A DNA stretch of 21,235 nt from Candidatus Eiseniibacteriota bacterium (GTDB lineage: Bacteria; Arandabacterota; Arandabacteria; JAGLYR01). The position numbers and the translations under genes were made by a program. The stretch covers positions 1 through 21,235 of the forward strand of contig JAGLYR010000042.1 in the NCBI GenBank assembly GCA_023132135.1. Direction: 5' to 3'. Shown here in pieces: positions 522-21,235 of this stretch. Numbering within the stretch: position 1 is the stretch's first letter; each line of letters opens with the position of its first letter. The notes beneath the pieces are model-generated. The model was given only the letters and a program-made list of their open reading frames with translations. It made no database searches and was not told the origin of the DNA.

Positions 522-3209
522 GTGGGCGTGACGGTTGGAGAAAAGATTGGCGGGTATCGGATCCTGAGGGCGCTGGCCACCGGCGCGACGGGACCCCTGT
601 ATGTCGCCTCCCGGGAACCGGCCCAGGGGCAGGCGATTCTCAAGATCCTCCCGCGCTGCTCTCTGGGAGACGATGCTCTCAGGCGGATTGTCCTTCGTGA
701 AGTGGCAACGGCCGCTGGTCTGAAGCATCCGAATCTCGTGCGGAATCTGGGCGTCGAGGACCACGAAGGCCGGGTCGTGCTGGTCTTTGAGCACCTGGAC
801 GCAGAACCTCTGGGAAACCGGATGGCCACGGGGCCCGGCACAGAGGTTCAGGTTCTCGACCTGGCTCTTCAGGTTCTGGATGCGCTGGACGCTTTCCACG
901 AGTACGGTCTCCTGCACTGCGACATCTGTCCCGAGAACATCCTGATGGAACCCGACGGCAAGGCCCGTCTTATTGGTTTGGGGCTCGGGAAGAATGCCGG
1001 GAGCTTCCGTCATGCCGGGGGAGCTTCCCAACAGGCTTTCCCCTGTTCTGCCCCGGAGCAACTGGAAGGGGCCCGGTGCACCGGGCGGAGCGACCTGTTT
1101 TGCCTGGGTGCTGTTCTGTACGAGTGGCTGACGGGAGAACGTCCCTTTGCCGGGGCGGATGAGGAGTCGTACCGGAGATCTCTTTCGGCGGGATCGCCGG
1201 CGCCACCATCACAAAAAACGGTGGGGGTCTCACGGAAAACGGACGCTCTGTTGCTCAAGGCTCTTGAGACCGACCCATCACGCCGGTTCTCAAGCGCTGC
1301 GGCCATGCGCGACGCGGTGGCCAGGGTTCGCCGGAGTGTCCTCCCGCAGAAGACCGAAGAGGCAGACGAGCGTGAGCGTCCGGTCTCCAGGGAACCGGGT
1401 CTCGCGAGGTGGACTCCGCTCATTGTCGCGGCGGTGGCCTTGGCCGTGGTGGTGCTGGTGTCGTGGTATCTGAGCCGAAGGCAGGCCCCCGGGATTGTGC
1501 CGGAGCGGGGCGTAGTGGTAACCCAGATTACAAACTGGCCGGGGGTGGAAACGGATCCCAGCATTTCGCGCGATGGGCGGCGGGTCGCTTTCAGTTCGGA
1601 CTTCTGCGGCAACCGCGATCTATGGGTCGCCGATCTGGAGACCGGCGACGTTGCTCAGATTACCAGCACAGTGGAATGTGAATGCCACCCTTGCTGGTCT
1701 CCGGACGGGACGAGCCTTGCGTACTGCCTGGACGGCGCCTCCGAGGGTATCCGGGTGATTCCCGCCGCTGGCGGAGAATGGCGCGATGTTTCGCCTACCG
1801 GATACCGGCCCGACTGGTCTCCCTTGGGGAATGCCATCGCATTTGACGCGAGAACCCGCACGGAGCGCCCGAGAGTCTGGGTGATCACTCCTCAAGGGGA
1901 GGTCGTCGGGCAGATGACCCGGGCCGAGGAACCGGCATCTGTGCATCTGCGACCCCGGTGGTCGCCCGACGGGCAGGGCATCATCTACCAACGCATCAGG
2001 GATCAAGCCCACGACATCTGGTTTGTTTCTCCGGAGACCCGGATCCAGCGTCCGGTGACCCGTGCGCCCCAGCGGGATTTCGACGGCATCTGGGATCCGA
2101 CGGGCAAGTGGATCTACTTCTGCTCCGGGATCGGGGACAGCGTTCACATCAACCGGACCATCGCCCGGGGTGGGCGCCGGTTCCGGATGACGCGCGAGGC
2201 AGGCTACTACTCGGAACTTTCCATATCGGGCGACGGGCGTCGCATTGTGTTCTCCACGGTAGAGCGGCAGATTCACCTGTGGCGGGTGCGGGTGGGAAGC
2301 GGGGAGGCCGAGCGTGTGAAAACGTCTCTGGCCCGAACTGTCTCGCCCGGCGTTTCACCGGACGGCCGCCGGATAGTGGCGAGCTCCGATGCCCTTCGGA
2401 GCTGGGATGTGTTCATTGTGGAGGGGGGAACAGCGACCCGGATGACTGCCGGGTCCGGGAACGAGCTTCATCCCCGGTGGGCGCCGGATGGGGGGCGCCT
2501 GGCATTTGTGAGCCGGTACAATTTCGAAAGCTCGGATATTGGTGTGGTCTGGCCGGGGGAGGCAGGCACACGGCTGGTTGTCTCGGGCGGAGAGAACACG
2601 GATCCCTGCTGGTCGCCCGATGGCCGGTCGTTGGCTTTCGTGAAGGTCCACAGTCCCAGCCGCAAGGATATCTGGACTGTAGATGTGACTTCAGGCTTGG
2701 CGCTGCCCATCACGCAGGCGGGGGTGAACATGACGCCCGTGTGGTCGCCCGACGGCTCGAGGATTCTTTTCTATTCCAAGGGGGAAAGTTGGTCGGGACT
2801 CTACGTTGTGGCAGCTGGGGGAGGAGTGATCCCTCGCTTCGTGGTCGATGGGCAAGACGGGAGGTGGTCTCCCGATGGAGGGGCCATCGCCTATTCGGCA
2901 GGGGATCCGGGCCATGAGGATATCTGGGTGTTTGACCTCAAGAATGTGACCGGCACAAGACTGACGAACCAGGCGGGAGGCTTCCGTTGTCCTGCCTGGT
3001 CTCCGGATGGACGCCGCGTTGCTTTCGTGTCCGATTCGTACGGATCGCCCGATCTGTGGTACGTGTCGGCCACCGGCGGTTTGCCCCGGCGGGTGGCGGA
3101 AAACACCTGCCTGGATGGGTATCCCGTGTGGTCACCCGATGGGAAATGGTTGTATTTTGCGAAGGAAGAAGAAGTGGGTGGGGATATCTGGATGTACGAG
3201 ACCTTCTAG
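522..3209 (+). CDS. Membrane-anchored (pseudo)kinase with PD40/TolB-like beta-propeller
   Basis: The 895-residue protein has three parts. Residues 10-270 are a protein-kinase fold: Lys41 (AILKIL), Glu60 of helix C, HCDICPEN at 132-139, APE at 177-179 and the helix-F Asp191 are visible. Residues 298-317 form one membrane helix. From about 330 to the end there are about 13 repeats of the WSPDGxxxAF type, as in TolB/PD40 propellers, enough for two six- or seven-bladed propellers. The expected topology is kinase inside and propeller in the periplasm, suggesting a receptor that senses an outer ligand. The active site is degraded: the glycine loop begins ATG instead of GxG, the catalytic-loop Lys is Cys136, and the DFG Asp is Gly152 (GLG). 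Metal-dependent phosphotransfer is therefore doubtful. The GTG at 522 has AGAGG at 513-517 (spacing 4); the GTG at 528 is an alternative with spacing 10. The stop codon is the first triplet of a dispersed repeat. The family call is firm; the loss of activity is inferred. Confidence 0.9.
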   Translation: MGVTVGEKIGGYRILRALATGATGPLYVASREPAQGQAILKILPRCSLGDDALRRIVLREVATAAGLKHPNLVRNLGVEDHEGRVVLVFEHLDAEPLGNRMATGPGTEVQVLDLALQVLDALDAFHEYGLLHCDICPENILMEPDGKARLIGLGLGKNAGSFRHAGGASQQAFPCSAPEQLEGARCTGRSDLFCLGAVLYEWLTGERPFAGADEESYRRSLSAGSPAPPSQKTVGVSRKTDALLLKALETDPSRRFSSAAAMRDAVARVRRSVLPQKTEEADERERPVSREPGLARWTPLIVAAVALAVVVLVSWYLSRRQAPGIVPERGVVVTQITNWPGVETDPSISRDGRRVAFSSDFCGNRDLWVADLETGDVAQITSTVECECHPCWSPDGTSLAYCLDGASEGIRVIPAAGGEWRDVSPTGYRPDWSPLGNAIAFDARTRTERPRVWVITPQGEVVGQMTRAEEPASVHLRPRWSPDGQGIIYQRIRDQAHDIWFVSPETRIQRPVTRAPQRDFDGIWDPTGKWIYFCSGIGDSVHINRTIARGGRRFRMTREAGYYSELSISGDGRRIVFSTVERQIHLWRVRVGSGEAERVKTSLARTVSPGVSPDGRRIVASSDALRSWDVFIVEGGTATRMTAGSGNELHPRWAPDGGRLAFVSRYNFESSDIGVVWPGEAGTRLVVSGGENTDPCWSPDGRSLAFVKVHSPSRKDIWTVDVTSGLALPITQAGVNMTPVWSPDGSRILFYSKGESWSGLYVVAAGGGVIPRFVVDGQDGRWSPDGGAIAYSAGDPGHEDIWVFDLKNVTGTRLTNQAGGFRCPAWSPDGRRVAFVSDSYGSPDLWYVSATGGLPRRVAENTCLDGYPVWSPDGKWLYFAKEEEVGGDIWMYETF

Positions 3210-3267
3210 CCTGGATTATTCATGAATCCCTGCTGCTCGCTACGGGATTCCTGAATAACCCAGGCTA
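3207..3267. repeat. Inverted-repeat element starting at the stop codon of the kinase gene
   Basis: Two 24-bp arms (3207-3230 and 3244-3267) are reverse complements at 22 of 24 positions and enclose a 13-base loop. The left arm begins with the TAG stop codon of the upstream gene. The first 30 bp (3207-3236) recur exactly at 21109-21138, again starting at a stop codon. The hairpin has no T-tract, so it is not a classical terminator. It resembles REP/BIME-type intergenic elements in form, but I do not recognise the family. Confidence 0.85.
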
Positions 3268-3291
3268 CAATAGCAGTATTCCCCAATCCCA

Positions 3292-3319
3292 GTCGCCTGT
3301 CACCCGTCACCTGTCACTG
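3292..3319. repeat. Heptamer tandem array A1 (GTCACCY type)
   Basis: Four consecutive 7-bp units follow one another: GTCGCCT, GTCACCC, GTCACCT, GTCACTG. The array sits in the loop of an imperfect inverted repeat, with left arm 3281-3293 and right arm 3316-3327 pairing over 12 bp with one bulged base. No coding function is evident. Confidence 0.75.
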
Positions 3320-3352
3320 GGTTGGGGCCGATGGCGTCGCCAGGTACCCATA

Positions 3353-3380
3353 GGAAATCGGAAATAGGAAATGGGAAATA
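3353..3380. repeat. Heptamer tandem array A2 (GGAAATN type)
   Basis: GGAAAT starts at 3353, 3360, 3367 and 3374, an exact 7-bp period, with a variable seventh base (C, A, G, A). It lies between array A1 and the YchF gene. With the inverted repeat and A1, this accounts for much of the 263-bp gap between genes. Confidence 0.8.
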
Positions 3381-3441
3381 GGGCGAAGGCCGACACGGTG
3401 TCCGTGCTGCTTTTCACTTCTCATCCCAATCCCTTTCATAG

Positions 3442-3447
3442 TATAGT
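3442..3447 (+). promoter_or_regulatory. Possible -10 box for the YchF-type gene
   Basis: TATAGT at 3442-3447 lies 26 bp before the GTG start and just upstream of the ribosome binding site AGGGGG (3460-3465). No convincing -35 box is seen at the matching distance (TTCTCA at 3418 is weak). Confidence 0.35.
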
Positions 3448-3472
3448 TTCCCCACTCACAGGGGGATAGTCC

Positions 3473-4564
3473 GTGAAACTCGGGATCATTGGATTGCCGC
3501 TCGCAGGCAAGACGACCATCTTCAATGCTATCACCCAGCTGAAGGCGGAGACTTCCGACTACGGGCCCGGCAAGAGGATGCCGAATATGGGAGCGGTCAA
3601 GGTCCCGGATGCTCGCCTCGATCGGCTGGCCGAGATGTTCGCCCCCCGGAAGCCCGTTCACGCCACCCTCGAGTTCCTCGACATCGCGGGCTTGAGCCGT
3701 GGCGATTCAACCAGGGGCGATACGGAAGCCCAGCTTCTGGCCAGGATCCGGGAGGCCGATGGGCTCATCCACGTGATTCGGGCTTTTGAGAATGAGAACG
3801 TTCTCCATCCCGAAGGTTCCAACAATGTGGCCCGGGACGCGGGAATCGTGGACGACGAACTGATCCTCGCGGATCTGGCCATTATTGAAAAGCGACTGGA
3901 AAGAGTCGAATCCGATCTCAAGAAAATAAAGAGCGCCGAGCTGGTGAAGGAACAGGAGATCCTTCGCAGCTGTCAGGTCTCGCTCGAGGAGGAGAAACCT
4001 CTTCGGAATGTGGATTTCGACAAGAACGATCTCCGAGTCATCAGCGGGTATTGCTTCCTGACCCAGAAACCCGAACTGTACGTGGTCAACCTTGGAGAGG
4101 AACAGAAGGGGAAGGAAGACGAACTGCTGAGTCTGCTCAAGGGTCCCATCGAGAACCGGAAGACCCGCGCGGCGGCTTTTTTCGGAAGGCTGGAAGCCGA
4201 GATCGGGGAGCTGGACGAAGAAGATGCAAGGGCATTCCTCGAAGACCTGGGGCTGAGCGAGCCCAGTCTGGAACGGCTCGTCCAGGAAGCATACGCGGTG
4301 ATGGGCGTTCACACGTTCTTCACCATCGGCGACGACGAGGTGCGGGCCTGGGCAATTCCGATTGCGGCCTGCGCGGTCGACGCTGCCGGCGAAATCCACT
4401 CCGACATAGAGCGAGGATTCATTCGGGCGGAAGTCGTGGCCTTCGATGAACTGATGGAGTGTGGGTCCTTGGCCAAGGCAAAGAGCGAAGCGAAATTGAG
4501 GTTGGAGGGCAAAGGGTACGAGGTGCAGGACGGGGATGTCATCCAGTTCAGATTCAGTGTGTAG
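3473..4564 (+). CDS. YchF/OLA1-type ATPase, divergent subfamily
   Basis: This 363-residue protein has the length and layout of the YchF/Obg-like ATPase family: an N-terminal P-loop NTPase domain with a helical insertion, then a C-terminal TGS domain (about 282-361, starting FFTIGDDEVRAWAI). The P-loop is GLPLAGKT (7-14), the Walker B/G3 motif is DIAGL (70-74), and the nucleotide-base motif is NLGE (206-209), matching the NxxE that gives YchF its ATP preference. The helical insertion (about 130-170) is charged and coiled-coil-like. YchF proteins bind ribosomes and influence translation and the oxidative stress response. Two things are unusual: the P-loop has Lys-Thr where canonical YchF has NVGKS, and the conserved NYPFCTIEPN switch-I segment is replaced by DYGPGKRMPN. 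I read this as a YchF paralogue rather than the standard enzyme and give no gene symbol. The GTG start is set by AGGGGG at 3460-3465, seven bases upstream. Confidence 0.85.
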   Translation: MKLGIIGLPLAGKTTIFNAITQLKAETSDYGPGKRMPNMGAVKVPDARLDRLAEMFAPRKPVHATLEFLDIAGLSRGDSTRGDTEAQLLARIREADGLIHVIRAFENENVLHPEGSNNVARDAGIVDDELILADLAIIEKRLERVESDLKKIKSAELVKEQEILRSCQVSLEEEKPLRNVDFDKNDLRVISGYCFLTQKPELYVVNLGEEQKGKEDELLSLLKGPIENRKTRAAAFFGRLEAEIGELDEEDARAFLEDLGLSEPSLERLVQEAYAVMGVHTFFTIGDDEVRAWAIPIAACAVDAAGEIHSDIERGFIRAEVVAFDELMECGSLAKAKSEAKLRLEGKGYEVQDGDVIQFRFSV

Positions 4565-4595
4565 CGGCACTGTTTTCCTTGCAAACGGAGAGTAG

Positions 4596-5993
4596 ATGTC
4601 AAACTCTTTGAGTGGACCTGGCTCGCAGAAGCCGTATCCGTTTGTTGTCCGGGCGGTTTTCTATATCTGCCTGGCGGCTCTTGGTGCGGGGGTGATATAC
4701 CTTGTCGTGCGCCTGCCGAGTCGTAGCGCGGGCGAGGCGGCGCGATCCGAGAGGCTTTGCGAGAGTGCCGAGCTTGCCCTGGCCTCGCCGTATGTTCCCA
4801 AACTCGCGGGTTTGGCTTCCGATTCGCTTCTCTACGAACAGGTGTCTCACACCGAGGAGATCAAGGGGACGATTCGCAGACGGGACACGGTGAGCGATCT
4901 GCTGCTCCGCCACGGGTTCTCCCACGAACTGGTCCATGCGGTGAACCAGGCGGCCCGCCCGGTCTTTGATCTCAGGAAAATCCGAGCCGGGCAACGCTAC
5001 GCCCTGGCCTCAGCGGGAACGACCTTCTGCCATTTCACCTATGAGATCGACCCCGAGCACTATCTTCTGGTCGAATCACGGGGTGGGGAATTCCACTCCG
5101 AGATCCGCGAGTATCCCTTTCAGATCCGGGCGGATTCTCTCGTAGGAATCATCGCCAGTTCTCTGTTCAAGACCGTTCTGGACCTGGGTGAAGGCCCGGA
5201 TCTTGCGTTGGAACTCACGGAGGTTTTCGCCTGGGACATCGACTTTTTCCTGGACATTCGCAAAGGGGACAGCTTCAAGATTTTCTTCGAGAGGAAGTGT
5301 CTGGGTGACACTACGGTGTGCTACGGCAGGGTCCTGGCAGCGGACTTCAGTGTCCAGGGCAAGTCGCACAAGGCTGTCTACTTCTGTGACGAGACAGGCT
5401 ACGACGACTACTACACCTTTGAGGGCGGATCCCTGAGAAAGGCCCTTCTGAAGGCGCCGCTCCGGTACACGCGCATCAGCTCGAATTTCAGCTACCGTCG
5501 ATTCCATCCCGTCCGGCATCGGTACGCTCCACACCTGGGGATTGACTACGCGGCCCCGACAGGAACCCCCGTGCGGGCCACGGGAGACGGAACGATTGCT
5601 TTTGCCGGCCGCAAGGGGGACAACGGGAACATGATTCAGATCCGGCACAACGAGACCTACAAGACCTACTACCTCCACCTGTCCAGGTTCGCCAAAGGAA
5701 TCAGCAAGGGGAAACACGTCAAGCAGGGAGACGTGATAGCATACGTGGGGTCCACAGGTTGCTCGACGGGTCCCCACCTCGACTACCGGATCAAGAAACA
5801 TGGTAAGTTCATCAATCCTCGCAAGGTAGACCTGCCGGCTGCGGATCCCGTGGCGGACGCGTACCGCCCGCAGTTCGAGACCCTGCGGGACCACTGGGCA
5901 GGACGTCTCGCCCGGCTTGGCAGTGAACCGACTGAAGAGATTGCCCTCGGGGGTCCATCAAATCCTTTCAGCTCCTGTTCTCCTGATCGTTGA
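4596..5993 (+). CDS. Membrane-anchored M23 family peptidoglycan peptidase
   Basis: The product has 465 residues. A single membrane helix at about 17-38 would anchor it with the rest in the periplasm. Residues 85-280 resemble the LysM-like/OapA-like N-terminal region of MepM/Csd3-type endopeptidases (RRRDTVSDLLLRHGF...). The M23 (LytM) domain spans about 300-410: HLGIDYAAPTGTPV supplies zinc ligands His313 and Asp317, YLHLS supplies His361, and GPHLDYRIKKHGKFINP holds His394 with Asp396. In most M23 enzymes this last motif is HLH, so the third zinc ligand is Asp here; HLxYR variants are known in related proteins, so activity is still possible. The likely role is cleavage of peptide crosslinks in murein during growth. 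ATG 4596 follows GGAG at 4587-4590, and the upstream gene ends 31 bp before. The C-terminal tail after about 425 is low in recognisable features. Confidence 0.9.
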   Translation: MSNSLSGPGSQKPYPFVVRAVFYICLAALGAGVIYLVVRLPSRSAGEAARSERLCESAELALASPYVPKLAGLASDSLLYEQVSHTEEIKGTIRRRDTVSDLLLRHGFSHELVHAVNQAARPVFDLRKIRAGQRYALASAGTTFCHFTYEIDPEHYLLVESRGGEFHSEIREYPFQIRADSLVGIIASSLFKTVLDLGEGPDLALELTEVFAWDIDFFLDIRKGDSFKIFFERKCLGDTTVCYGRVLAADFSVQGKSHKAVYFCDETGYDDYYTFEGGSLRKALLKAPLRYTRISSNFSYRRFHPVRHRYAPHLGIDYAAPTGTPVRATGDGTIAFAGRKGDNGNMIQIRHNETYKTYYLHLSRFAKGISKGKHVKQGDVIAYVGSTGCSTGPHLDYRIKKHGKFINPRKVDLPAADPVADAYRPQFETLRDHWAGRLARLGSEPTEEIALGGPSNPFSSCSPDR

Positions 5994-6003
5994 TGGGGTA
6001 TTG

Positions 6004-7983
6004 ATGAAACGCGCACCGGTCCGCGTTCTGGTCCTTCTGCCTTTTCTGCTTCTCGCCACTGCCGGAGCCCCCGCCGCAGGGGCCCCGAAGGAAGCTCCCA
6101 GCGGTTTTCGGGTCGATATCCAGGCTCCGTCCTGTGTCACCTCCGGCACGCCCTTCGACCTTGGTGTGATTGTCACCGATGATCTGGGGCGGCCTGTCCG
6201 CTCCTTTGCAGGGCCCATCCGGATTTCCTCCCCCGGTCACAATCTGTTTCTGCTGGATGGGGATGGAACCCGGCGGCCGATTCCCCCGGTCGACCTGGCG
6301 GATGGAAAAGCCGTGGTTGAGGATCTGACCTTCACACAATCCGGGATCCGGCGGATCGAAGTACGCTGCCCAGGCGACGGCGAGCACGCGGTGGGAGCGG
6401 CCGAGGTGCGCGTTCTTCCGGGTGTGCTTTCCATTCTCCCCCCGATCCTGGCCATTGCACTGGCTCTCATCTTCCGCCAGGTGGTGATAGCCCTTTTCTG
6501 CGGAATCTGGATGGGCGCCAGTTTCCTCCACGGGTTCAACCCGCTGGACGGTTTCCTGAGGACGCTGGATACGTATCTGGTGCAGGCTGTGGGAGACCCA
6601 TCCCACGCAGCCATCATCCTCTTCAGCCTGACCCTCGGTGGGATGGTGGGCATTCTTGCTCGCTCCGGTGGAATCCGCGGAATCGTGAAGGCCCTGTCCC
6701 GGTATGCCCGCACTGCGCGGTCCGCCCAGATTGCCACTTGGGGAATGGGACTGCTCATTTTTTTCGACGACTATGCCAACACCCTGCTGGTGGGAAACAC
6801 GATGCGGTCGGTGACCGATCGACTGAGGATCTCGCGCGAGAAGCTGTCGTTCATCGTGGATTCCACAGCCGCTCCTGTAACCAGTATCGCTTTCATCTCC
6901 ACGTGGATCGGCTACGAGCTGGGGCTGATTGCGGACGCTTTCCAATCCATCGGTGTGGAGAAGAATGTCTACCTGGTTTTCATCTCCACCATTCCGTACA
7001 GGTTCTACAGCATCCTGCTCCTCGTGTTCGTGTTTCTGGTGGGTTGGACGGGCCGCGACTTCGGGGGAATGCTGGCGGCCGAAAGGCGGGCCCGGGCCAC
7101 GGGCAAGGTTCAGCGGGACGGCGCGGCTCCGCTGTCCCAGATGGATCTGCAGGAGATGAAGACCCCCGAGAGCGCCCGGTGTGTCTGGTGGAACGGACTG
7201 CTGCCGATCCTGACCGTGATCGTGGTCACCGTGGTGGGCCTTTACGTGAGCGGACGCAGCGCGCTGGTCTCTCGGGAAGGCATCGAGGCTCTGAGGGGAG
7301 CCGGCCTCCACGAGGTGATCGGTGCGGCCGACTCCTTTGCCGTGCTCATGTGGGCGGCCTTTGCCGGGACGCTGGCAGCCGGGATTCTCTCCACCGCGCA
7401 GCGGGTGCTGACCCTGACAGAAGTTGTGGATGCCTGGGTGGTGGGTGTGCGGGCGATGGTTGTGGGCATGATCATCCTCGTGTGTGCGTGGGCCATTGGC
7501 AGGGTCTGCATGGATCTCCAGACCGGAGAGTGGGTTTTCCAGGTCACCCGCGATGTTCTCTCGCCTAAGTTCCTGCCCATGCTCTGCTTCCTGTTGGCCG
7601 GGGGAGTGGCCTTTGCCACCGGAACGTCCTGGGGCTCCATGGCTATCCTGATGCCACTGGTTGTTCCCCTGGCGTTCCGGTTGAGTGGAGAGCCCGGCAT
7701 CCAGCTCGGGACCATTGCCGCGGTCCTGGCCGGCTCCACTTTCGGAGACCACTGCTCGCCCATCAGCGACACCACTGTGATGTCGTCTATGGCGTCCGCG
7801 GCGGACCACGTGGATCACGTTCGAACACAGGCCCCGTATGCGCTCACGGTGGGGGCGATTGCCTGTCTCGCGGGGTACCTGCCCGCGGGATTCGGGTTTC
7901 CTGTGTGGTTATCGTTGCCGGTGGGACTCGTGTTGCTGTGGGTTGTGTTGAGGGTTGTGGGGAAGAGGGTGGAGGAGACGTGA
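6004..7983 (+). CDS. NhaC-family Na+/H+ antiporter with exported Ig-like N-terminal domain
   Basis: The start is placed at ATG 6004, preceded by GGGG (5995-5998), rather than at the upstream in-frame ATG 5917, because translation from 6004 yields a clean signal peptide (MKRAPVRVLVLLPFLLLATAGAPAAG). The protein has 659 residues. Residues 30-140 form a soluble beta-rich segment resembling a bacterial Ig-like domain (VTSGTPFDLGVIVTDDLGRPV...), expected outside the cytoplasmic membrane. From about 145 onward there are many membrane helices with NhaC/antiporter-superfamily motifs: FFDDYANTLLVG (about 254-263), GTSWGSMAILMPL, and GDHCSPISDTTVMSS (from 581). The role would be exchange of sodium or another ion, or a small metabolite, for protons at the inner membrane; specificity cannot be read from the sequence. 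The start lies 10 bp after the M23 stop codon, so the two are probably cotranscribed. The TGA stop codon is part of heptamer array B. Confidence 0.88.
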   Translation: MKRAPVRVLVLLPFLLLATAGAPAAGAPKEAPSGFRVDIQAPSCVTSGTPFDLGVIVTDDLGRPVRSFAGPIRISSPGHNLFLLDGDGTRRPIPPVDLADGKAVVEDLTFTQSGIRRIEVRCPGDGEHAVGAAEVRVLPGVLSILPPILAIALALIFRQVVIALFCGIWMGASFLHGFNPLDGFLRTLDTYLVQAVGDPSHAAIILFSLTLGGMVGILARSGGIRGIVKALSRYARTARSAQIATWGMGLLIFFDDYANTLLVGNTMRSVTDRLRISREKLSFIVDSTAAPVTSIAFISTWIGYELGLIADAFQSIGVEKNVYLVFISTIPYRFYSILLLVFVFLVGWTGRDFGGMLAAERRARATGKVQRDGAAPLSQMDLQEMKTPESARCVWWNGLLPILTVIVVTVVGLYVSGRSALVSREGIEALRGAGLHEVIGAADSFAVLMWAAFAGTLAAGILSTAQRVLTLTEVVDAWVVGVRAMVVGMIILVCAWAIGRVCMDLQTGEWVFQVTRDVLSPKFLPMLCFLLAGGVAFATGTSWGSMAILMPLVVPLAFRLSGEPGIQLGTIAAVLAGSTFGDHCSPISDTTVMSSMASAADHVDHVRTQAPYALTVGAIACLAGYLPAGFGFPVWLSLPVGLVLLWVVLRVVGKRVEET

Positions 7984-8008
7984 ATCGTCAGTCGTGAATC
8001 GTGAATCG
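7981..8008. repeat. Heptamer tandem array B (TGAATCG type)
   Basis: Four consecutive 7-bp units: TGAATCG, TCAGTCG, TGAATCG, TGAATCG. The first unit begins with the TGA stop codon of the antiporter gene. The array ends 5 bp before the ribosome binding site of the next gene. Confidence 0.8.
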
Positions 8009-8028
8009 GGGCGGAAGGAGCGAACCCC

Positions 8029-8505
8029 ATGGATCTCTATCTGGTACGCCATGGCCAGGCAGAATCTCCGGCCGGAGATCCCGAGAGGGGTCTGACGGAT
8101 CTGGGAATCAAGCAGGCGGATGCGGCCGCCGAGTGGGCGGCGGAAGCGGGCGCGCGGGTCACACAGATCTGGCACAGTGGGAAGAAGCGGGCTGTGGAGA
8201 CGGCGGAGATCTTCGCCAAGCACCTGCACCCACCCGGAGGCGTGCTCCAGGCGGGCGGTCTTTTGCCCAACGATGACGTCGTGCCGGTGGCGGATCTTGT
8301 GGAATCGGAATCGGAGTCCGTCATGATCGTGGGGCATCTGCCGTTTCTGCCGCGCCTGGCCAGCGTTCTGGTTGCCGGTGATCCCGAGCGAGTAGGATTC
8401 GGGATGTTCGAAGGCAGCGTCGTCTGCCTGCACCGGCGGGACGGTCGGTGGTATGCAAAGTGGATGGTGAGTCCGAATGAAGTGCTGAGCAAGAGCAGTC
8501 CGTAG
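8029..8505 (+). CDS. sixA: SixA-type phosphohistidine phosphatase
   Basis: This 158-residue protein is a small member of the histidine phosphatase (phosphoglycerate mutase-like) superfamily. The N-terminal LYLVRHGQAE carries the RHG motif (Arg7, His8, Gly9; His8 is the phospho-acceptor). SGKKRAVETAEIFA is the usual second conserved block, and MIVGHLPFLPRL brings the second catalytic His103. Size and pattern match SixA, which dephosphorylates phosphohistidine on HPt domains or PTS proteins; no such partner is encoded in this window. The protein is cytoplasmic, with no signal or membrane segment. ATG 8029 follows GGAAGGAG at 8013-8020, eight bases upstream. The last codons and the TAG stop are built from units of heptamer array C1, so the C-terminus SSP may have been set by the repeat. 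It is probably cotranscribed with the antiporter, 45 bp upstream. Confidence 0.88.
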   Translation: MDLYLVRHGQAESPAGDPERGLTDLGIKQADAAAEWAAEAGARVTQIWHSGKKRAVETAEIFAKHLHPPGGVLQAGGLLPNDDVVPVADLVESESESVMIVGHLPFLPRLASVLVAGDPERVGFGMFEGSVVCLHRRDGRWYAKWMVSPNEVLSKSSP

Positions 8506-8524
8506 TCCCTAGTACGTAGTCTAA
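8497..8524. repeat. Heptamer tandem array C1 (AGTCCCT type)
   Basis: Four 7-bp units: AGTCCGT, AGTCCCT, AGTACGT, AGTCTAA. The first two units include the last codons and TAG stop (8503-8505) of the SixA-type gene. Together with about 12 bp of flank it forms the first copy of a 35-bp direct repeat (8502-8536) that returns at 8556-8590 with 32 of 35 bases identical. Confidence 0.8.
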
Positions 8525-8543
8525 GGGAAAGGGCATTAGAACA

Positions 8544-8578
8544 AGTCCCTAGTGCGTAGTCCCTAGTACGTAGTCCAA
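8544..8578. repeat. Heptamer tandem array C2 (AGTCCCT type)
   Basis: Five 7-bp units: AGTCCCT, AGTGCGT, AGTCCCT, AGTACGT, AGTCCAA. It is a second array of the same unit family as C1, separated from it by about 19 bp. It is part of the 299-bp non-coding gap between two convergent genes. Confidence 0.8.
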
Positions 8579-8603
8579 GGATAAGGGCATCGGAGGGGTT
8601 AAA

Positions 8604-8660
8604 GCCCCCGGAGGGGGCGGCTCAATGTTAGCCCCGGGTGGAACGAAGTGGAACCCGGGG
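8604..8660. repeat. Two GC-rich stem-loops in the convergent intergenic gap
   Basis: GCCCCC (8604-8609) pairs with GGGGGC (8613-8618) over a GGA loop. CCCCGGGT (8632-8639) pairs perfectly with ACCCGGGG (8653-8660). Neither stem has a T-tract, so they are not classical terminators, although they lie where two converging transcripts would meet. I see nothing coding here. Confidence 0.6.
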
Positions 8661-8701
8661 GGACAGAACGACAACGCCCAACCCTTTCTCGCCCTCGCGC
8701 C

Positions 8702-8790
8702 CGTCGTCCCCGCGAACGCGGGGACCCATTTTTCATATGCACGCTGTCCCAGCAACATCAAAATGGATTCCCGCGTTCGCGGGAATGACG
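8702..8790. mobile_element. Palindromic MITE-like element, full copy
   Basis: This 89-bp element has terminal inverted repeats of 31 bp (8702-8732 and 8760-8790) that agree at 27 of 31 positions. Each arm contains its own smaller palindrome (CCCCGCGAACGCGGGG on the left, TCCCGCGTTCGCGGGA on the right). The outer ends resemble the GTCATTCCCGCGAA type of palindromic repeat scattered through many bacterial genomes. A reverse-oriented half copy lies at 21186-21235, with 44 of 50 bases identical. It encodes no transposase and would depend on an enzyme in trans if it is mobile. It ends 14 bp from the stop codon of the minus-strand gene. Confidence 0.75.
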
Positions 8791-10523: not shown

Positions 10524-12271
10524 TGTTCTCTTTCCTTCAGCTCCTGGACGGCCCTCAGGTTAGCCCGGGCTTCCAGGTGATCCGGGTCCATCCTCAGTAT
10601 CCACCGAAATTCTCCCTCTGCCTCGTCCAGTTTCCCCAGTTGACCCAGGCAAATCCCCAGGTTGTTGCGGGCCGGGAGGAAACGGGGGCGGAGCCGGATG
10701 GCTTTGCGGAAGAAGGGGATAGCTCCCTCATGCTCGGCCAGGCTCAAGTAGGCCAGGCCCAGATTGTAGATCACGGAAGCCTCATCGCTCTTGAGATGGT
10801 ACGCTTCCTCGAAGGCCGTCCGGGCCCTTTCGAACTGCTTCTGCTCCGCGTACACGAGCCCCAGGTCGTAGTGGTCCTGCCACCGGGCGGTCCCGGCTAC
10901 TCCCAGGGAGCCGGAGTTGCTGAGGATCAGGAAAGAGATCCCGATGAGGCCGGCGACGGTGGCAGATCGGAAGCAACCGCGCCGGACCTGGCGAGCTGTC
11001 TCCAGAATACCCCAGACAGCGAAGGGGATAGCGACCGGAAGCAGCGCCACCCGGAATCGCGCGCATACGAAAAAGAGCAGGATTGCCAGCGCCTGGCAGA
11101 ACAGAAAGAGATACAACACCAGGTACTTCCTCGGACGGGTGGTGGAGAGCGCCAGGCCGACCGCGGCCAGGGGAATCAGAAGTCCGGTTGGAAATGCGAG
11201 ACCGCGCTTCCAGAGCAGAGTGTTCAGCACCCGGGAGCGTGCCTTGAAGAAGTAGAGGTCCTTGTTGTTGGGAATCTCGAATCCGTTCAGGAGGAAGTAG
11301 ATCTTCCGGGCGAAGAGCCCCGTGGCCTGCCATGGCTGTTCTCCGATGAACCGGAGAGCTTTCCCGGTCCAGAAGCTCGATTCCCGGGAGGGTGTCAGGG
11401 GACGGCCCGCCTCAGCTTCGGCCATCCTGCGGGTATCATCTTCAAAGGTGCTCCAGTCGCTCTCCGGATCCGTCCAGCCGGGGAGCTGCGCGGATTTGCC
11501 GTCGGCCTCGGGGTTGTTTCCCATGTAGAAGTTGACGCCGCCCTGGGAGGCTATCAGCACCGCATCGTTTCCTATGACGGCGTTGCGGATGGTGACCGGG
11601 GTGATGATGATCATCGCCCCTGCCAGAAACGCGATCAGGGATCGTCTTCCTTGCGATCGATCCGCGAGGAGCCAGATGAGGACCCCGGTTCCCAGGATCA
11701 GAATCTGGGGGCGCGTGAGGGCGGCCAGGCCGAGAATGAGCCCGGGCACAACCCAGCGCCGCAGACTCCTCGATCCGTCGGCCCGCAGGACGAGATAGAG
11801 GAAGAGCGCGCCGAGGAAGGTGGCAATCCCTGTGGCCAGGAGCTCGCCGTCGAAGAAAATGAGCGTGGGATAGAGAGCGGCGACGAGTCCGGAGATCAGG
11901 GCGGTCCTGCGGTCGAAGACCTGTCTTGCAGCAAGAGAGAGAAGGGCACAGGTTCCTGCTCCCAGGACCAGTTGGACGATCCTGGGTCCCTGGGGATTCT
12001 CCCCCAGCACCCGGTACCAGAAGGCGACAAAGTAGGAATAGAGAGGTCCCCGGAAGAAGACATCCTCTCCCCGGAAATCCCCCTTGAGAATGTCGATTGC
12101 GGAGCGATGATACCAGGCGGAGTCGAGAAGCGGAACCTGGTAGTACGCGTCGTTTCGAACCGTGAGGAAATAGACGAGGCGCGCGGCGAGTGCGACGAGG
12201 AAGATGACAAGGATCCCCCAGTCGAGTCCACGGAGCCGGGGATGATTGTGATGCTCGATCTCCGGGGTCAA
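10520..12271 (-). CDS. GT-C-fold membrane glycosyltransferase-like protein with C-terminal TPRs
   Basis: The 583-residue protein contains about a dozen membrane helices over residues 17-460, then three tetratricopeptide repeats at about 466-575 (YDLGLVYAEQKQFERARTAFEEA, IYNLGLAYLSLAEHEGAIPFFRKAI, NNLGICLGQLGKLDEAEGEF). The first outer loop holds Asp50 (VPLLDSAWYH) and is followed by FFRGPLYSYF, as in PMT_2 (dolichyl-phosphate-mannose mannosyltransferase-like) proteins. It probably transfers a lipid-linked sugar onto a protein or envelope polymer, with the TPR part binding a partner. Both ends overlap neighbours as ATGA: the start with the methyltransferase stop (12268-12271) and the stop with the start of the next gene (10520-10523). 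This tight coupling argues that all three are made together. Confidence 0.8.
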   Translation of the reverse strand: MTPEIEHHNHPRLRGLDWGILVIFLVALAARLVYFLTVRNDAYYQVPLLDSAWYHRSAIDILKGDFRGEDVFFRGPLYSYFVAFWYRVLGENPQGPRIVQLVLGAGTCALLSLAARQVFDRRTALISGLVAALYPTLIFFDGELLATGIATFLGALFLYLVLRADGSRSLRRWVVPGLILGLAALTRPQILILGTGVLIWLLADRSQGRRSLIAFLAGAMIIITPVTIRNAVIGNDAVLIASQGGVNFYMGNNPEADGKSAQLPGWTDPESDWSTFEDDTRRMAEAEAGRPLTPSRESSFWTGKALRFIGEQPWQATGLFARKIYFLLNGFEIPNNKDLYFFKARSRVLNTLLWKRGLAFPTGLLIPLAAVGLALSTTRPRKYLVLYLFLFCQALAILLFFVCARFRVALLPVAIPFAVWGILETARQVRRGCFRSATVAGLIGISFLILSNSGSLGVAGTARWQDHYDLGLVYAEQKQFERARTAFEEAYHLKSDEASVIYNLGLAYLSLAEHEGAIPFFRKAIRLRPRFLPARNNLGICLGQLGKLDEAEGEFRWILRMDPDHLEARANLRAVQELKEREQ

Positions 12272-13053
12272 ACCGATTCCTTTGTTGAGGGTATTCTGTA
12301 CTTGCCCGTGGCCAGTCGCTCGGCTGCGAATTCGTAGTACTCGCGCACAATCTCAAAACCGACGTACCGGCGGTTGAGCATTCTGCTTACGACTGCGACC
12401 TGGCCGGACCCGAGGAAAGGGTCGAGAACAACATCTCCTTCCTCAGAGGAATAGAGAAGGGTCTTCTTGATGAGCTCGGCCGGCAGTTTTGTCGGCGTTT
12501 TCTTGTCTCCGGTCCAGTACTCACGCTTGATAACCCAGACGTCCTCCTTGTCTCTGTAGTGCGCACTGCCCCCTTCGGCGTGTCTTTCGTGCTGGGGGAA
12601 CCGGGCAAAGGGGAAGAACTTCCTCAACCTGTCGTTCTTGCAGACGTAGAGGCAGTGGTAATGAGACGTTACGAATTTCCTTCTTGTGACGACCCCGAAC
12701 TGGTACTTCCAGACGATGTGATTCACCGTTGTGAATCCGAGTGTGTCCAGGGCGGCGAGAATGTCCTTCAGATAGTTCCAACCGGAAAAGACGTACATGC
12801 TCCCGGATTTCTTGAGGATGCGACGGACTCCCTCCATCCACCGGAGCGTGAAGTCATAGTACTCGTCACCCGGAATCTCATTGTACCCCTCAATTACCCG
12901 GGACAGGCTGCGGTTGTAGTTGCCCCGTTTGGCCCGGAAGTTTATGGCGAAAGGAGGATCGGTGATCACGAGATCGATACTCTCGTCGCCAATCCGCTTC
13001 ATGCCGCGGATACAGTCTTCGTTGTAGATCCTGTTGAACTCAAGTGACTCCAT
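12268..13053 (-). CDS. Orphan beta-class DNA methyltransferase (N6-adenine or N4-cytosine)
   Basis: The 261-residue protein matches the N6_N4_Mtase family. Catalytic motif IV is TDPPF (31-35) near the N-terminus, and the SAM-binding motif I is DPFLGSGQ (211-218) near the C-terminus. The order IV then I defines the beta class. KTPTKLPAELIKKTL (about 185-199) corresponds to the conserved block preceding motif I, and YVGFEI follows it. It would methylate adenine N6 or cytosine N4 at a short recognition sequence that cannot be deduced here. No restriction endonuclease or specificity subunit is encoded nearby, so it is solitary in this window. It lies inside a glycosyltransferase operon: 14 bp after the upstream gene and overlapping the next start as ATGA. 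The start ATG is supported by AGAAGGA seven bases upstream on the minus strand. Confidence 0.88.
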   Translation of the reverse strand: MESLEFNRIYNEDCIRGMKRIGDESIDLVITDPPFAINFRAKRGNYNRSLSRVIEGYNEIPGDEYYDFTLRWMEGVRRILKKSGSMYVFSGWNYLKDILAALDTLGFTTVNHIVWKYQFGVVTRRKFVTSHYHCLYVCKNDRLRKFFPFARFPQHERHAEGGSAHYRDKEDVWVIKREYWTGDKKTPTKLPAELIKKTLLYSSEEGDVVLDPFLGSGQVAVVSRMLNRRYVGFEIVREYYEFAAERLATGKYRIPSTKESV

Positions 13054-19218: not shown

Positions 19219-21111
19219 ATGCGCAATCGCACCGCCATCCTAGGCAGCCTTTGGGTGGGGCTGGTGTCCGGAGCCCTGTGTGGCCTGGCGCTGAGTGTGC
19301 TCTTCAGCCCACGCCTGTTTGTCGCATACCTGTTTTCCATTCTCGTGTACAGCGCGGCCGGTGGCATGGGCGCCCTTGCTCTCTCTGCGATTCTTGTCCT
19401 CGTAGCCAATCCGCACAGGGCGCTCAGGATCGTCGCCGGGTTGGTGTCCGGCTCCTACGTCTTCTTTGCACTGGCCTACTGGGGAAACCGTTGGCTCCTG
19501 GTCGGTAATCCCTTCACCAGCTCGTCCAGCCTCAAGTTCGACGCGGCGGCCCTGGCTGTCGCGATTCTGATCGGTGTTCTCGTCGCGGTGCTCTTCGGGA
19601 GATGGCTGGGGGCGAGATACGGGCCCCGCCATAGACTCCCTCGCGACGGCTCGGGATCTACTCGGGGCGAACGGGAAAGGCCTGTCGGACGCATGGTGGC
19701 CGCCGGGACCGGCGTTCTCGTGGTGCTACCCCTCGTCCTGCTGCTGGTGATCTCTGTGAGGGGCATGTCCGATCTGTCCGATTCGAAAGCCCGCAAGCCA
19801 TCGGTGATTCTGATCTCGATTGACGCCCTGCGGGCCGACCACCTTGGTTGCTACGGGTATCCCAGGAAAACGACTCCCGTGGCCGACCGGCTGGCCGCAG
19901 AGGGCGTGAGATTCGAGTACGCGTTCTGCCCGGTGCCTTCGACCGGGCCTTCCCACGCCACGATGCTGACAGGGTTGACTCCCTCCACCCACGGGCTGCG
20001 GCGCAATGGGGACTCACTCCCGGATTCTGCTCTCACCCTGGCGGAGGTTCTCTCCGAAGCCGGGTACGCCACCGGGGGTTTCACTACCAATATTGTCCTG
20101 GACGATCAGTTCGGTTTCACGCAGGGCTTCGATACCTATGTGGAGTCGGGGCATGTGGAGAAGCTCAGGCCGATTACGTGGTCCCTGCTTGCCCAGACGC
20201 TGGCGGCCAAGGAGATTTTCGACAAGTTCCTGGCCCAGACCGGCCGAGGCCGGGACCTGACGATCCTCTCTGCCCGGAAGTGGTTAGCGGGCAATGCCGA
20301 AAGACCCTTCTTCCTCTTTCTTCATCTTCTGGATCCCCACCATCCCTACGAGCCTCTGGAACCCTACCGATCCCGTTTTTCGCGAGACCTCGAAGGTCCG
20401 GGGAATTCCCTCTGGATCGAACAGGGCCGGGATCCCGAGGCCCTGGCGATGCAGCTTGCCCTCTACGACGGGGAGATTGCGGCGGCGGATGCAAAGGTGG
20501 GAGATCTCCTGCAGTATCTGGAAGACGCCGGGATCATGGATGGCACCCTCATCGTCTTCACCGCGGATCACGGGGAGAACATGGGGGACCACGAGCTCTT
20601 CTTCCGCCACACGGACGTCTACGATGCCTCCATGCGTGTGCCTCTCATTATCCGGTTCCCGGGGGTTCTGAGGGCGGGCCGGACGCTCACCCAGGTGGTC
20701 GAGAACAGCGCTCTGTTCCCGACAATCCTGTCGCTCATCCACCATGATGTTCCTGCAGGGTTGGATGGGGAAGATCTTGCTCTGTTGATGGAAGGGACGG
20801 CGGCGGAGAGGTTCCGGTTTGCCTTGGCCAACAGCGGGCGGCGGTGGGCGCTGAGAACCGGCTCGTGGAAAATCCGGATCGATTTCGGAGACGGATCCCG
20901 GCGGCTTTACGACCTGGTGAACGATCCCGAGGAAACGACGGATGTTCTGGCGGACCATCCGGAGGTCGGCGAGGAACTCGAGACCATCCTCCTGGCGGAA
21001 ATCGAGAGGCTGGAGGGAGCTCTGCCGAGCGGGGAAGAGGAAGCGTCTCCCTTCGAGGGACTGGATCGAGAGACGATTGAGCGATTGAAGGCCTTGGGAT
21101 ATGTACAATAG
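19219..21111 (+). CDS. Membrane-anchored sulfatase-fold enzyme with probable Thr nucleophile
   Basis: ATG 19219 is chosen over GTG 19207 because AGGGA (19210-19214) lies just before it and nothing resembling a ribosome binding site precedes the GTG. The 630-residue protein has about five membrane helices within residues 6-182 and then an alkaline-phosphatase/sulfatase-superfamily domain. Metal ligands fit LISIDALRADH (Asp202) and TADHGENMGDHELFFRHTD (Asp450, His451). The nucleophile region reads STGPSHATMLTG (241-252). Classical sulfatases have CxPSR there, needed to make formylglycine; here Thr242 and His246 replace Cys and Arg. This agrees with Thr-nucleophile enzymes of the superfamily, such as phosphoethanolamine or phosphoglycerol transferases, so a lipid or glycan headgroup transferase or hydrolase is likelier than a sulfatase. 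The C-terminus is LKALGYVQ. The TAG stop is the first triplet of a dispersed 30-bp repeat. Confidence 0.85.
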   Translation: MRNRTAILGSLWVGLVSGALCGLALSVLFSPRLFVAYLFSILVYSAAGGMGALALSAILVLVANPHRALRIVAGLVSGSYVFFALAYWGNRWLLVGNPFTSSSSLKFDAAALAVAILIGVLVAVLFGRWLGARYGPRHRLPRDGSGSTRGERERPVGRMVAAGTGVLVVLPLVLLLVISVRGMSDLSDSKARKPSVILISIDALRADHLGCYGYPRKTTPVADRLAAEGVRFEYAFCPVPSTGPSHATMLTGLTPSTHGLRRNGDSLPDSALTLAEVLSEAGYATGGFTTNIVLDDQFGFTQGFDTYVESGHVEKLRPITWSLLAQTLAAKEIFDKFLAQTGRGRDLTILSARKWLAGNAERPFFLFLHLLDPHHPYEPLEPYRSRFSRDLEGPGNSLWIEQGRDPEALAMQLALYDGEIAAADAKVGDLLQYLEDAGIMDGTLIVFTADHGENMGDHELFFRHTDVYDASMRVPLIIRFPGVLRAGRTLTQVVENSALFPTILSLIHHDVPAGLDGEDLALLMEGTAAERFRFALANSGRRWALRTGSWKIRIDFGDGSRRLYDLVNDPEETTDVLADHPEVGEELETILLAEIERLEGALPSGEEEASPFEGLDRETIERLKALGYVQ

Positions 21112-21138
21112 CCTGGATTATTCATGAATCCCTGCTGC
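21109..21138. repeat. Second copy of the 30-bp repeat that starts at a stop codon
   Basis: All 30 bases are identical to 3207-3236, and the first three are again the TAG stop codon of the preceding gene. The sequence after it differs: instead of the long right arm found at 3244-3267 there is only a 6-bp hairpin (CTGCGA with TCGCAG, about 21134-21148). Confidence 0.9.
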
Positions 21139-21185
21139 GAGTGTCGCAGGATGTGTCTGGACTGCGCCCTGGCGCCGAAGCCGAT

Positions 21186-21235
21186 CGTCATCCCCGCGAA
21201 AGCGGGGATCCATCTTGACCTTGCTGGGACAGCGT
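21186..21235. mobile_element. Partial second copy of the palindromic MITE-like element
   Basis: The last 50 bases match the reverse complement of 8741-8790 at 44 positions, including the CCCCGCGAAAGCGGGG palindrome and the segment TTGCTGGGACAGCGT. The rest of the element is cut off by the end of the window. Confidence 0.75.

Follow-up and report, generated by a model that had tools for sequence, protein, structure and literature searches.

What holds a tandem repeat to a step of seven bases when the repeated sequence changes from one array to the next? This question is raised by a stretch of 21,235 nucleotides (hereafter the window), in which five short heptamer arrays had been read as sharing a strict 7-bp period. 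TRF located period-7 arrays at 3299–3317, 3350–3382, 7979–8008, 8497–8521 and 8544–8576. A lag scan of the window returned exactly five segments at lag 7 (3289–3317, 3350–3382, 7979–8008, 8497–8520 and 8544–8574), all called intergenic, and no intergenic segments at lags 3–6 or 8–13. With about 0.2 arrays per lag expected in the window from a Markov null, against five observed at period 7, the arrays and their common period are real. The repeats and their immediate surroundings are as follows:

3208–3268, strand not assigned: REP-like palindromic repeat AGCCTGGATTATTCATGAATCCC...GGGATTCCTGAATAACCCAGGCTA beside array 1, about 20 copies in a 0.67 Mb sample of the genome.
3289–3317, forward strand: array 1, GTCACCY heptamers (TRF and lag scan), within the left half of an element that we call B.
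3319–3349, forward strand: spacer holding the mosaic joint, where element B (GGGTTGGGGCC) meets a second element, A (GATGGCGTCGCCAGGTACCC), at GGCC; from comparison with L024 15979, L033 3206 and L054 (B) and with L024 40–200 (A).
3350–3382, forward strand: array 2, GGAAATN heptamers, a single arm of fold-back element A, the other arm being missing here.
7979–8008, forward strand: array 3, CGTGAAT heptamers, solitary (TRF and lag scan).
8497–8521, forward strand: array 4, AGTCCNT heptamers (TRF and lag scan).
8523–8543, forward strand: 21-bp spacer AAGGGAAAGGGCATTAGAACA between arrays 4 and 5, conserved at many AGTCC arrays of the genome.
8544–8576, forward strand: array 5, AGTCCCT heptamers, about 4.7 units (TRF and lag scan), with a core of three TAGTCCN units shared with 189 places in the genome.
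8577–8590, forward strand: second copy of the spacer, AAGGATAAGGGCAT, then the next module, GGAGGGGTTAAAGCCCCCGGAGGGGGCGGC, from sequence comparison within the genome.

As originally placed, the arrays lie in or at the edge of gaps, being intergenic or at gene ends: array 3 includes the TGA stop codon (7981–7983) of the upstream Na+/H+ antiporter gene, and array 4 the TAG stop codon (8503–8505) of a His-phosphatase gene. Against the four or five units ascribed to each array, array 1 has only about three good GTCACC copies. An Rfam search of the window returned no known RNA family. The window also carries a DNA N6/N4 methyltransferase gene (PF01555) at 12268–13053.

The same period prevails across the window's own genome (3.40 Mb in 345 contigs). 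Three TAGTCC cores at 7-bp spacing matched 189 places with up to two mismatches, compared with 0–1 for the reversed pattern and none anywhere in the genome at a spacing of 6 or 8, and the GGAAAT core gave 64 matches at spacing 7 and none at spacing 8. Counted by period in 1.05 Mb of contigs, part of which had been picked because they held the core, intergenic arrays numbered 74 for period 7, one for period 6, 10 for period 8 and seven for period 9; a Markov null gave fewer than one array per period (0.67 Mb sample). Contigs picked regardless of the core (443 kb) held 12, one, five and three arrays of periods 7, 6, 8 and 9, respectively, where period 7 exceeded periods 6 and 8 together (p = 0.005) and the comparison of 7 with 8 alone was not significant (p = 0.14). 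The genome-wide scan proposed in the original prediction therefore came out in its favour, though the sample free of selection bias is small. The preference for period 7 is real, with periods 8 and 9 forming a minor class.

The units that keep this period are many, with 28 distinct canonical units in the own-genome sample and 115 in the loci from other phyla described below, and a single unit behind all arrays is ruled out by these counts. The claim of four unrelated units in the window holds only in part. Single arrays can alternate between GGAAATC and GTGAATC, as in AATGGGAAATCGGAAATCGTGAATCGGAAATCGG at L024:143–176, with many more matches genome-wide, which places arrays 2 and 3 in a single family of variants. 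Unit identity was 0.90 between neighbours and 0.79 at distances of 5–7, compared with a flat value of about 0.82 when the order was shuffled, and this fall with distance fits local slippage. The unit switches along the array in 30 of 96 long arrays, such that the two ends share no more than four of seven positions and the 7-bp register is kept. Some unit-changing arrays run into their own reverse complement (e.g. L087:3247–3321 and L171:3181–3255). Stepwise unit change or an own reverse complement, with the 7-bp register intact, was seen in long cyanobacterial arrays at these two loci and at L105:5240–5405 and L162:4835–4936.

Several arrays of this genome belong to larger, dispersed elements. 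The AGTCC arrays mostly hold 3–5 units each. A conserved spacer, AAGGARAAGGGCAT, comes next, in many cases extended by YRGAACA, and leads to a further array of AGTCC or GTGCTAC units; the window has one such module in arrays 4 and 5 and the 21-bp spacer at 8523–8543. Since the same spacers, and even identical arrays of several units, recur at many AGTCC loci, the copying of ready-made elements contributes here. Array 3 yielded no further copy when its stretch was compared with the genome sample by BLAST. Some AGTCC arrays run straight into the REP-like palindrome AGCCTGGATTATTCATGAATCCC (L011 and the end of L018), which has a second window copy at 21109–21138. Two more dispersed modules follow array 5, at 8596–8660 and 8700–8790, with AAGCCCCCGGAGGGGGCGGCTCAAT and the palindromic CGTCGTCCCCGCGAACGCGGGG...CCCGCGTTCGCGGGAATGACG; the second of these recurs, inverted, at 21176–21235.

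Arrays 1 and 2 have a composite origin in the comparison with these dispersed copies. The left half of element B in the window comprises the lead ATTCCCCAATCC at 3278–3289, the GTCACC arm (array 1) and the tail GGGTTGGGGCC; L013, L019, L024, L033, L050 and L054 carry homologous copies in which lead and arm are the same, and complete copies run on into an inverted GTGACA/GTGTCGA arm. Array 2 with GATGGCGTCGCCAGGTACCC corresponds to the loop of element A plus one of its two arms; in complete copies of A (e.g. L024:58–180 and L214:9424–9540) the two arms are inverted and of the GGAAAT type. A whole-genome search gave about 10 copies of element A, including those at C86, C310, C119 and C140, and the window matches only positions 30–86 of the 161-position query; the copies at C310, C140, C177 and others are known from their search positions. 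The two elements meet in the window at GGCC, which is common to both. By this alignment, arrays 1 and 2 are a mosaic in which halves of two different fold-back elements have been fused. Inverted ends combined with dispersed copies, as in REP/MITE-type elements, are found here, the inverted arms in part of the elements.

Beyond this genome, we looked for the same arrays in relatives and in other phyla. Neither TAGTCC nor GGAAAT arrays were found in the seven other genomes of the phylum (eight genomes including the window's own). At least 118 stretches, drawn from many phyla and groups, hold the exact TAGTCC array; cyanobacteria, Acidobacteria, Bacteroidota, Planctomycetota, Verrucomicrobia, Chloroflexi, Geomonas and Hydrogenedentota are among the sources. 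After the hits and their surrounding 150 bp were excluded, these loci, which were selected for carrying a heptamer array and are not a random sample of bacteria, contained 66 intergenic arrays of period 7, three of period 6, eight of period 8 and 11 of period 9, with many other units. The STRR sequences of filamentous cyanobacteria are degenerate heptamers of fixed period that lie between genes. Loci of Calothrix, Nostoc and Anabaena with the TAGTCC array show just such degenerate, fixed-period intergenic heptamers; they belong to another lineage, whereas the arrays here are linked to a 21-bp spacer and to fold-back halves. That heptamers of this kind reach beyond cyanobacteria is thus borne out by the TAGTCC array, although the class and its heptamer bias had been described previously.

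Arrays are often accompanied by an inverted partner. Among the loci from other phyla, 72 of 205 intergenic period-7 arrays had an inverted partner within 200 bp and 18 of 205 a direct one; the corresponding counts in this genome were 13 and two of 74, and shuffled flanks gave 0 to 1 partners. Counted as pairs, the inverted excess reached significance in other phyla (p = 6.6e-5), whereas here it was no more than suggestive (p = 0.07). The element A copies fold as hairpins (L024:58–180, z = −2.8 as RNA and −2.5 as DNA; L214:9424–9540, z = −4.2 and −3.7), and z-scores of −2.4 or below were obtained for the element A copies, two other pairs of this genome and one Geomonas pair. The fused arrays 1 and 2 of the window (z = −0.14) and one copy of element B (z = −0.65) folded no better than shuffled sequence. 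In other phyla, gaps between divergent genes hold fewer arrays than expected (30 of 232, where 26% would be expected; p = 4e-6; eight of 96 for paired arrays), and in this genome 12 of 71 lie there against 27% expected (p = 0.06). Most AGTCC arrays downstream of a same-direction gene start within 50 bp of its stop codon. The arrays may serve as terminators or at mRNA ends.

Orthologous loci in Geomonas show how such arrays differ between species. At one gene end, ...AAGGACTAG is followed by about 5.7 GGGACTA units in G. propionica, about three in G. azotofigens, and 3.6, 1.7 and 1.7 in three further genomes; others have none. Sister Geomonas genomes carry period-6 arrays of the AAGACT/AAGATT type at the same gene end, and both GGGACTA and the period-6 units resemble the local gene end and stop-codon sequence. 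Period-6 arrays at this period-7 gene end were noted in L261 (genome G027), with about eleven AAGATT units, and in L262. Read from the aligned sequences, this gene end shows arrays growing in place by entire units, and seven is not a fixed period there. The range from 0 to about 5.7 units, together with period 6 in sister genomes, speaks for duplication in place and slippage rather than for a protein that strictly counts bases. Because the eight genomes of the window's phylum include no close relative, in-place growth is demonstrated for Geomonas and not for the window's lineage. At two further Geomonas loci, some species have paired GTTCTAC or GTTCAAC elements and others either lack them or hold different hairpins in their place; the loops between the arms differ among the paired elements. 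For these two loci insertion or replacement is as good a fit as in-place growth. Period-8 arrays occur two at a time in Geomonas (L274/L275, L284/L285 and L288/L289; for example, concatenated positions 891–915 and 974–996 of G009), perhaps like the paired octamers of Geobacter metallireducens.

A constant period without constant sequence had been taken to indicate a process that sets length. This is partly supported: seven exceeds 6, 8 and 9 outside genes both here and around the arrays of many phyla, and the register outlives unit change. A strict counter or templated addition is not supported, given the arrays of periods 8 and 9 and the period 6 of Geomonas. Beside the observed period-7 excess, dispersal, mosaics, inverted pairs, gene-end bias, unit-wise change in Geomonas and similarity of neighbouring units, we set a reading that on balance we consider probable: bacterial intergenic heptamer repeats would arise by duplication of local sequence, softly favouring a step of seven, followed by slippage, the formation of hairpin pairs and, here, dispersal into mosaics. 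A short stretch, often at the 3′ end of a gene, would be duplicated in a step that is preferentially, but not absolutely, seven bases, and the arrays would then gain and lose whole units through replication slippage. Inverted partner arrays would turn many of them into hairpin (fold-back) elements, the second arm probably coming from strand switching or fold-back copying, unless the pair arrives together, and arrays may be retained near gene ends as hairpin-forming or neutral elements. Several elements would then have been copied in this genome to many intergenic sites and recombined into mosaics, such that the window may be understood as two fused half-elements (arrays 1 and 2), a solitary stop-codon array (array 3) and a module of two arrays separated by the 21-bp spacer (arrays 4 and 5).

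A peak at seven is not what ordinary slippage predicts. We put forward only tentatively, as a possibility, that a conserved feature of replication or repair at hairpin-forming gene ends favours duplication or re-copying in seven-base steps whatever the sequence, such that the register would survive replacement and inversion of units across unrelated phyla.

Of the alternatives to local duplication, the one that fares best is that the arrays are non-autonomous mobile elements (MITE- or REP-like), spread ready-made by a transposase for which the heptamers are subterminal binding sites. The modular copies with conserved spacers, the inverted arms, the pairs present or absent at the two orthologous Geomonas loci and a single match in the genome to a Y1 transposase (RAYT-type, REP-associated; C145:6435–6620) are all as such elements would have it. 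We nevertheless regard this as unlikely, since one genome holds 28 canonical units, copy number in Geomonas changes unit by unit with units that resemble the local gene end, and the loops between the arms of Geomonas elements differ; no target duplication was seen, without a systematic search.

A dedicated enzymatic step that duplicates exactly seven bases, by a staggered cut with fill-in or by templated addition, would account for the sharp mode at seven in many phyla with unrelated units, and for the result of the fixed-core test (189 matches at spacing 7 against 0 and 0 at 6 and 8). Period-6 arrays at the Geomonas gene end that bears period-7 arrays in sister species, and arrays of periods 8 and 9 within the same genomes, make it quite improbable. 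We give marginally less credence still to predicted binding by a protein whose dimer covers 7 bp, such as a ribbon-helix-helix protein. Omega of pSM19035, a protein of this type, binds contiguous 7-bp WATCACW repeats, accepts direct and inverted heptads and needs at least four for full activity, and the arrays here mostly have 3–5 units. Such a seven-base-counting protein is possible for single units, but the many unrelated units, too many for one protein, and their drift inside arrays speak against it, as does the position of arrays near 3′ ends and their depletion between divergent genes, where operators would be expected. Least probable of all is selection for stop codons in all frames at gene ends, seven not being a multiple of three: a gene's own stop is often inside the array (arrays 3 and 4; the Geomonas locus), but unit counts largely refute it as the cause of period 7, with a stop on at least one strand in 16 of 28 units here against 15.3 expected and a mild excess elsewhere (71 of 115 against 62), and periods 5, 8 and 10 would serve equally.

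Comparable repeats have been reported in several lineages. The intergenic GGGAATC and GGGGA(C/T)T heptamers of Xanthomonas and Nostoc resemble the present arrays in their period of seven, mostly few units and rarity between divergent genes, and lengths at a given locus differ between species; inverted convergent heptamer pairs are reported in Xanthomonas (PMC4692102). They were studied there as one unit family per genome, G-rich and quadruplex-capable, whereas here there are many units, several not G-rich, and spacer-linked modules. On consensus inspection, GTCACCY, TGAATCG and GGAAATN lack the GGG tract in every unit, on either strand, that four-G-tract quadruplexes of the Xanthomonas/Nostoc type have, and AGTCCCT (GGGACTA on the other strand) has one in only part of its units. 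G-quadruplexes as the general reason for the arrays were rejected on inspection, most window units being without regular G-tracts. The TAACTGA repeats of Beggiatoaceae, cyanobacteria and Bacteroidetes are likewise short intergenic heptamer arrays, in hundreds and scattered over phyla, but have one dominant unit and lie just upstream of start codons, whereas the arrays here are mainly near 3′ ends (PMC4679880). In Geobacter metallireducens, multicopy heptamer/octamer elements comprise four to five tandem heptamers, mostly as opposite-strand pairs, as here; that account interprets them as regulator binding sites and is not known to describe unit mixture or mosaic joints (PMC2700814). Mrazek et al. 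(2007), as cited in PMC4692102 and PMC4679880, found heptamers to be the commonest long repeat class in prokaryotes and proposed polymerase slippage; as represented there, theirs is a work of genome statistics on long simple sequence repeats, and the heptamer excess is common to both studies.

Heptamer excess, inverted pairs and gene-end bias are therefore already published, and the arrays are members of a known, unexplained class. In the openly licensed literature we did not find described one array across this many phyla, general inverted pairing, a change of period at an orthologous gene end, or mosaic half-elements such as those of this genome. The bias of bacterial tandem repeats to seven has been an open question since at least 2007, and it is narrowed here: the step is preferred but not absolute, units are replaceable without loss of register, and arrays at a gene end grow where they stand. 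Inverted pairs able to form hairpins are not peculiar to Xanthomonas but common across many phyla. Geomonas, with many sequenced species and differing copy numbers at one gene end, is a tractable system in which to measure the step length of slippage.
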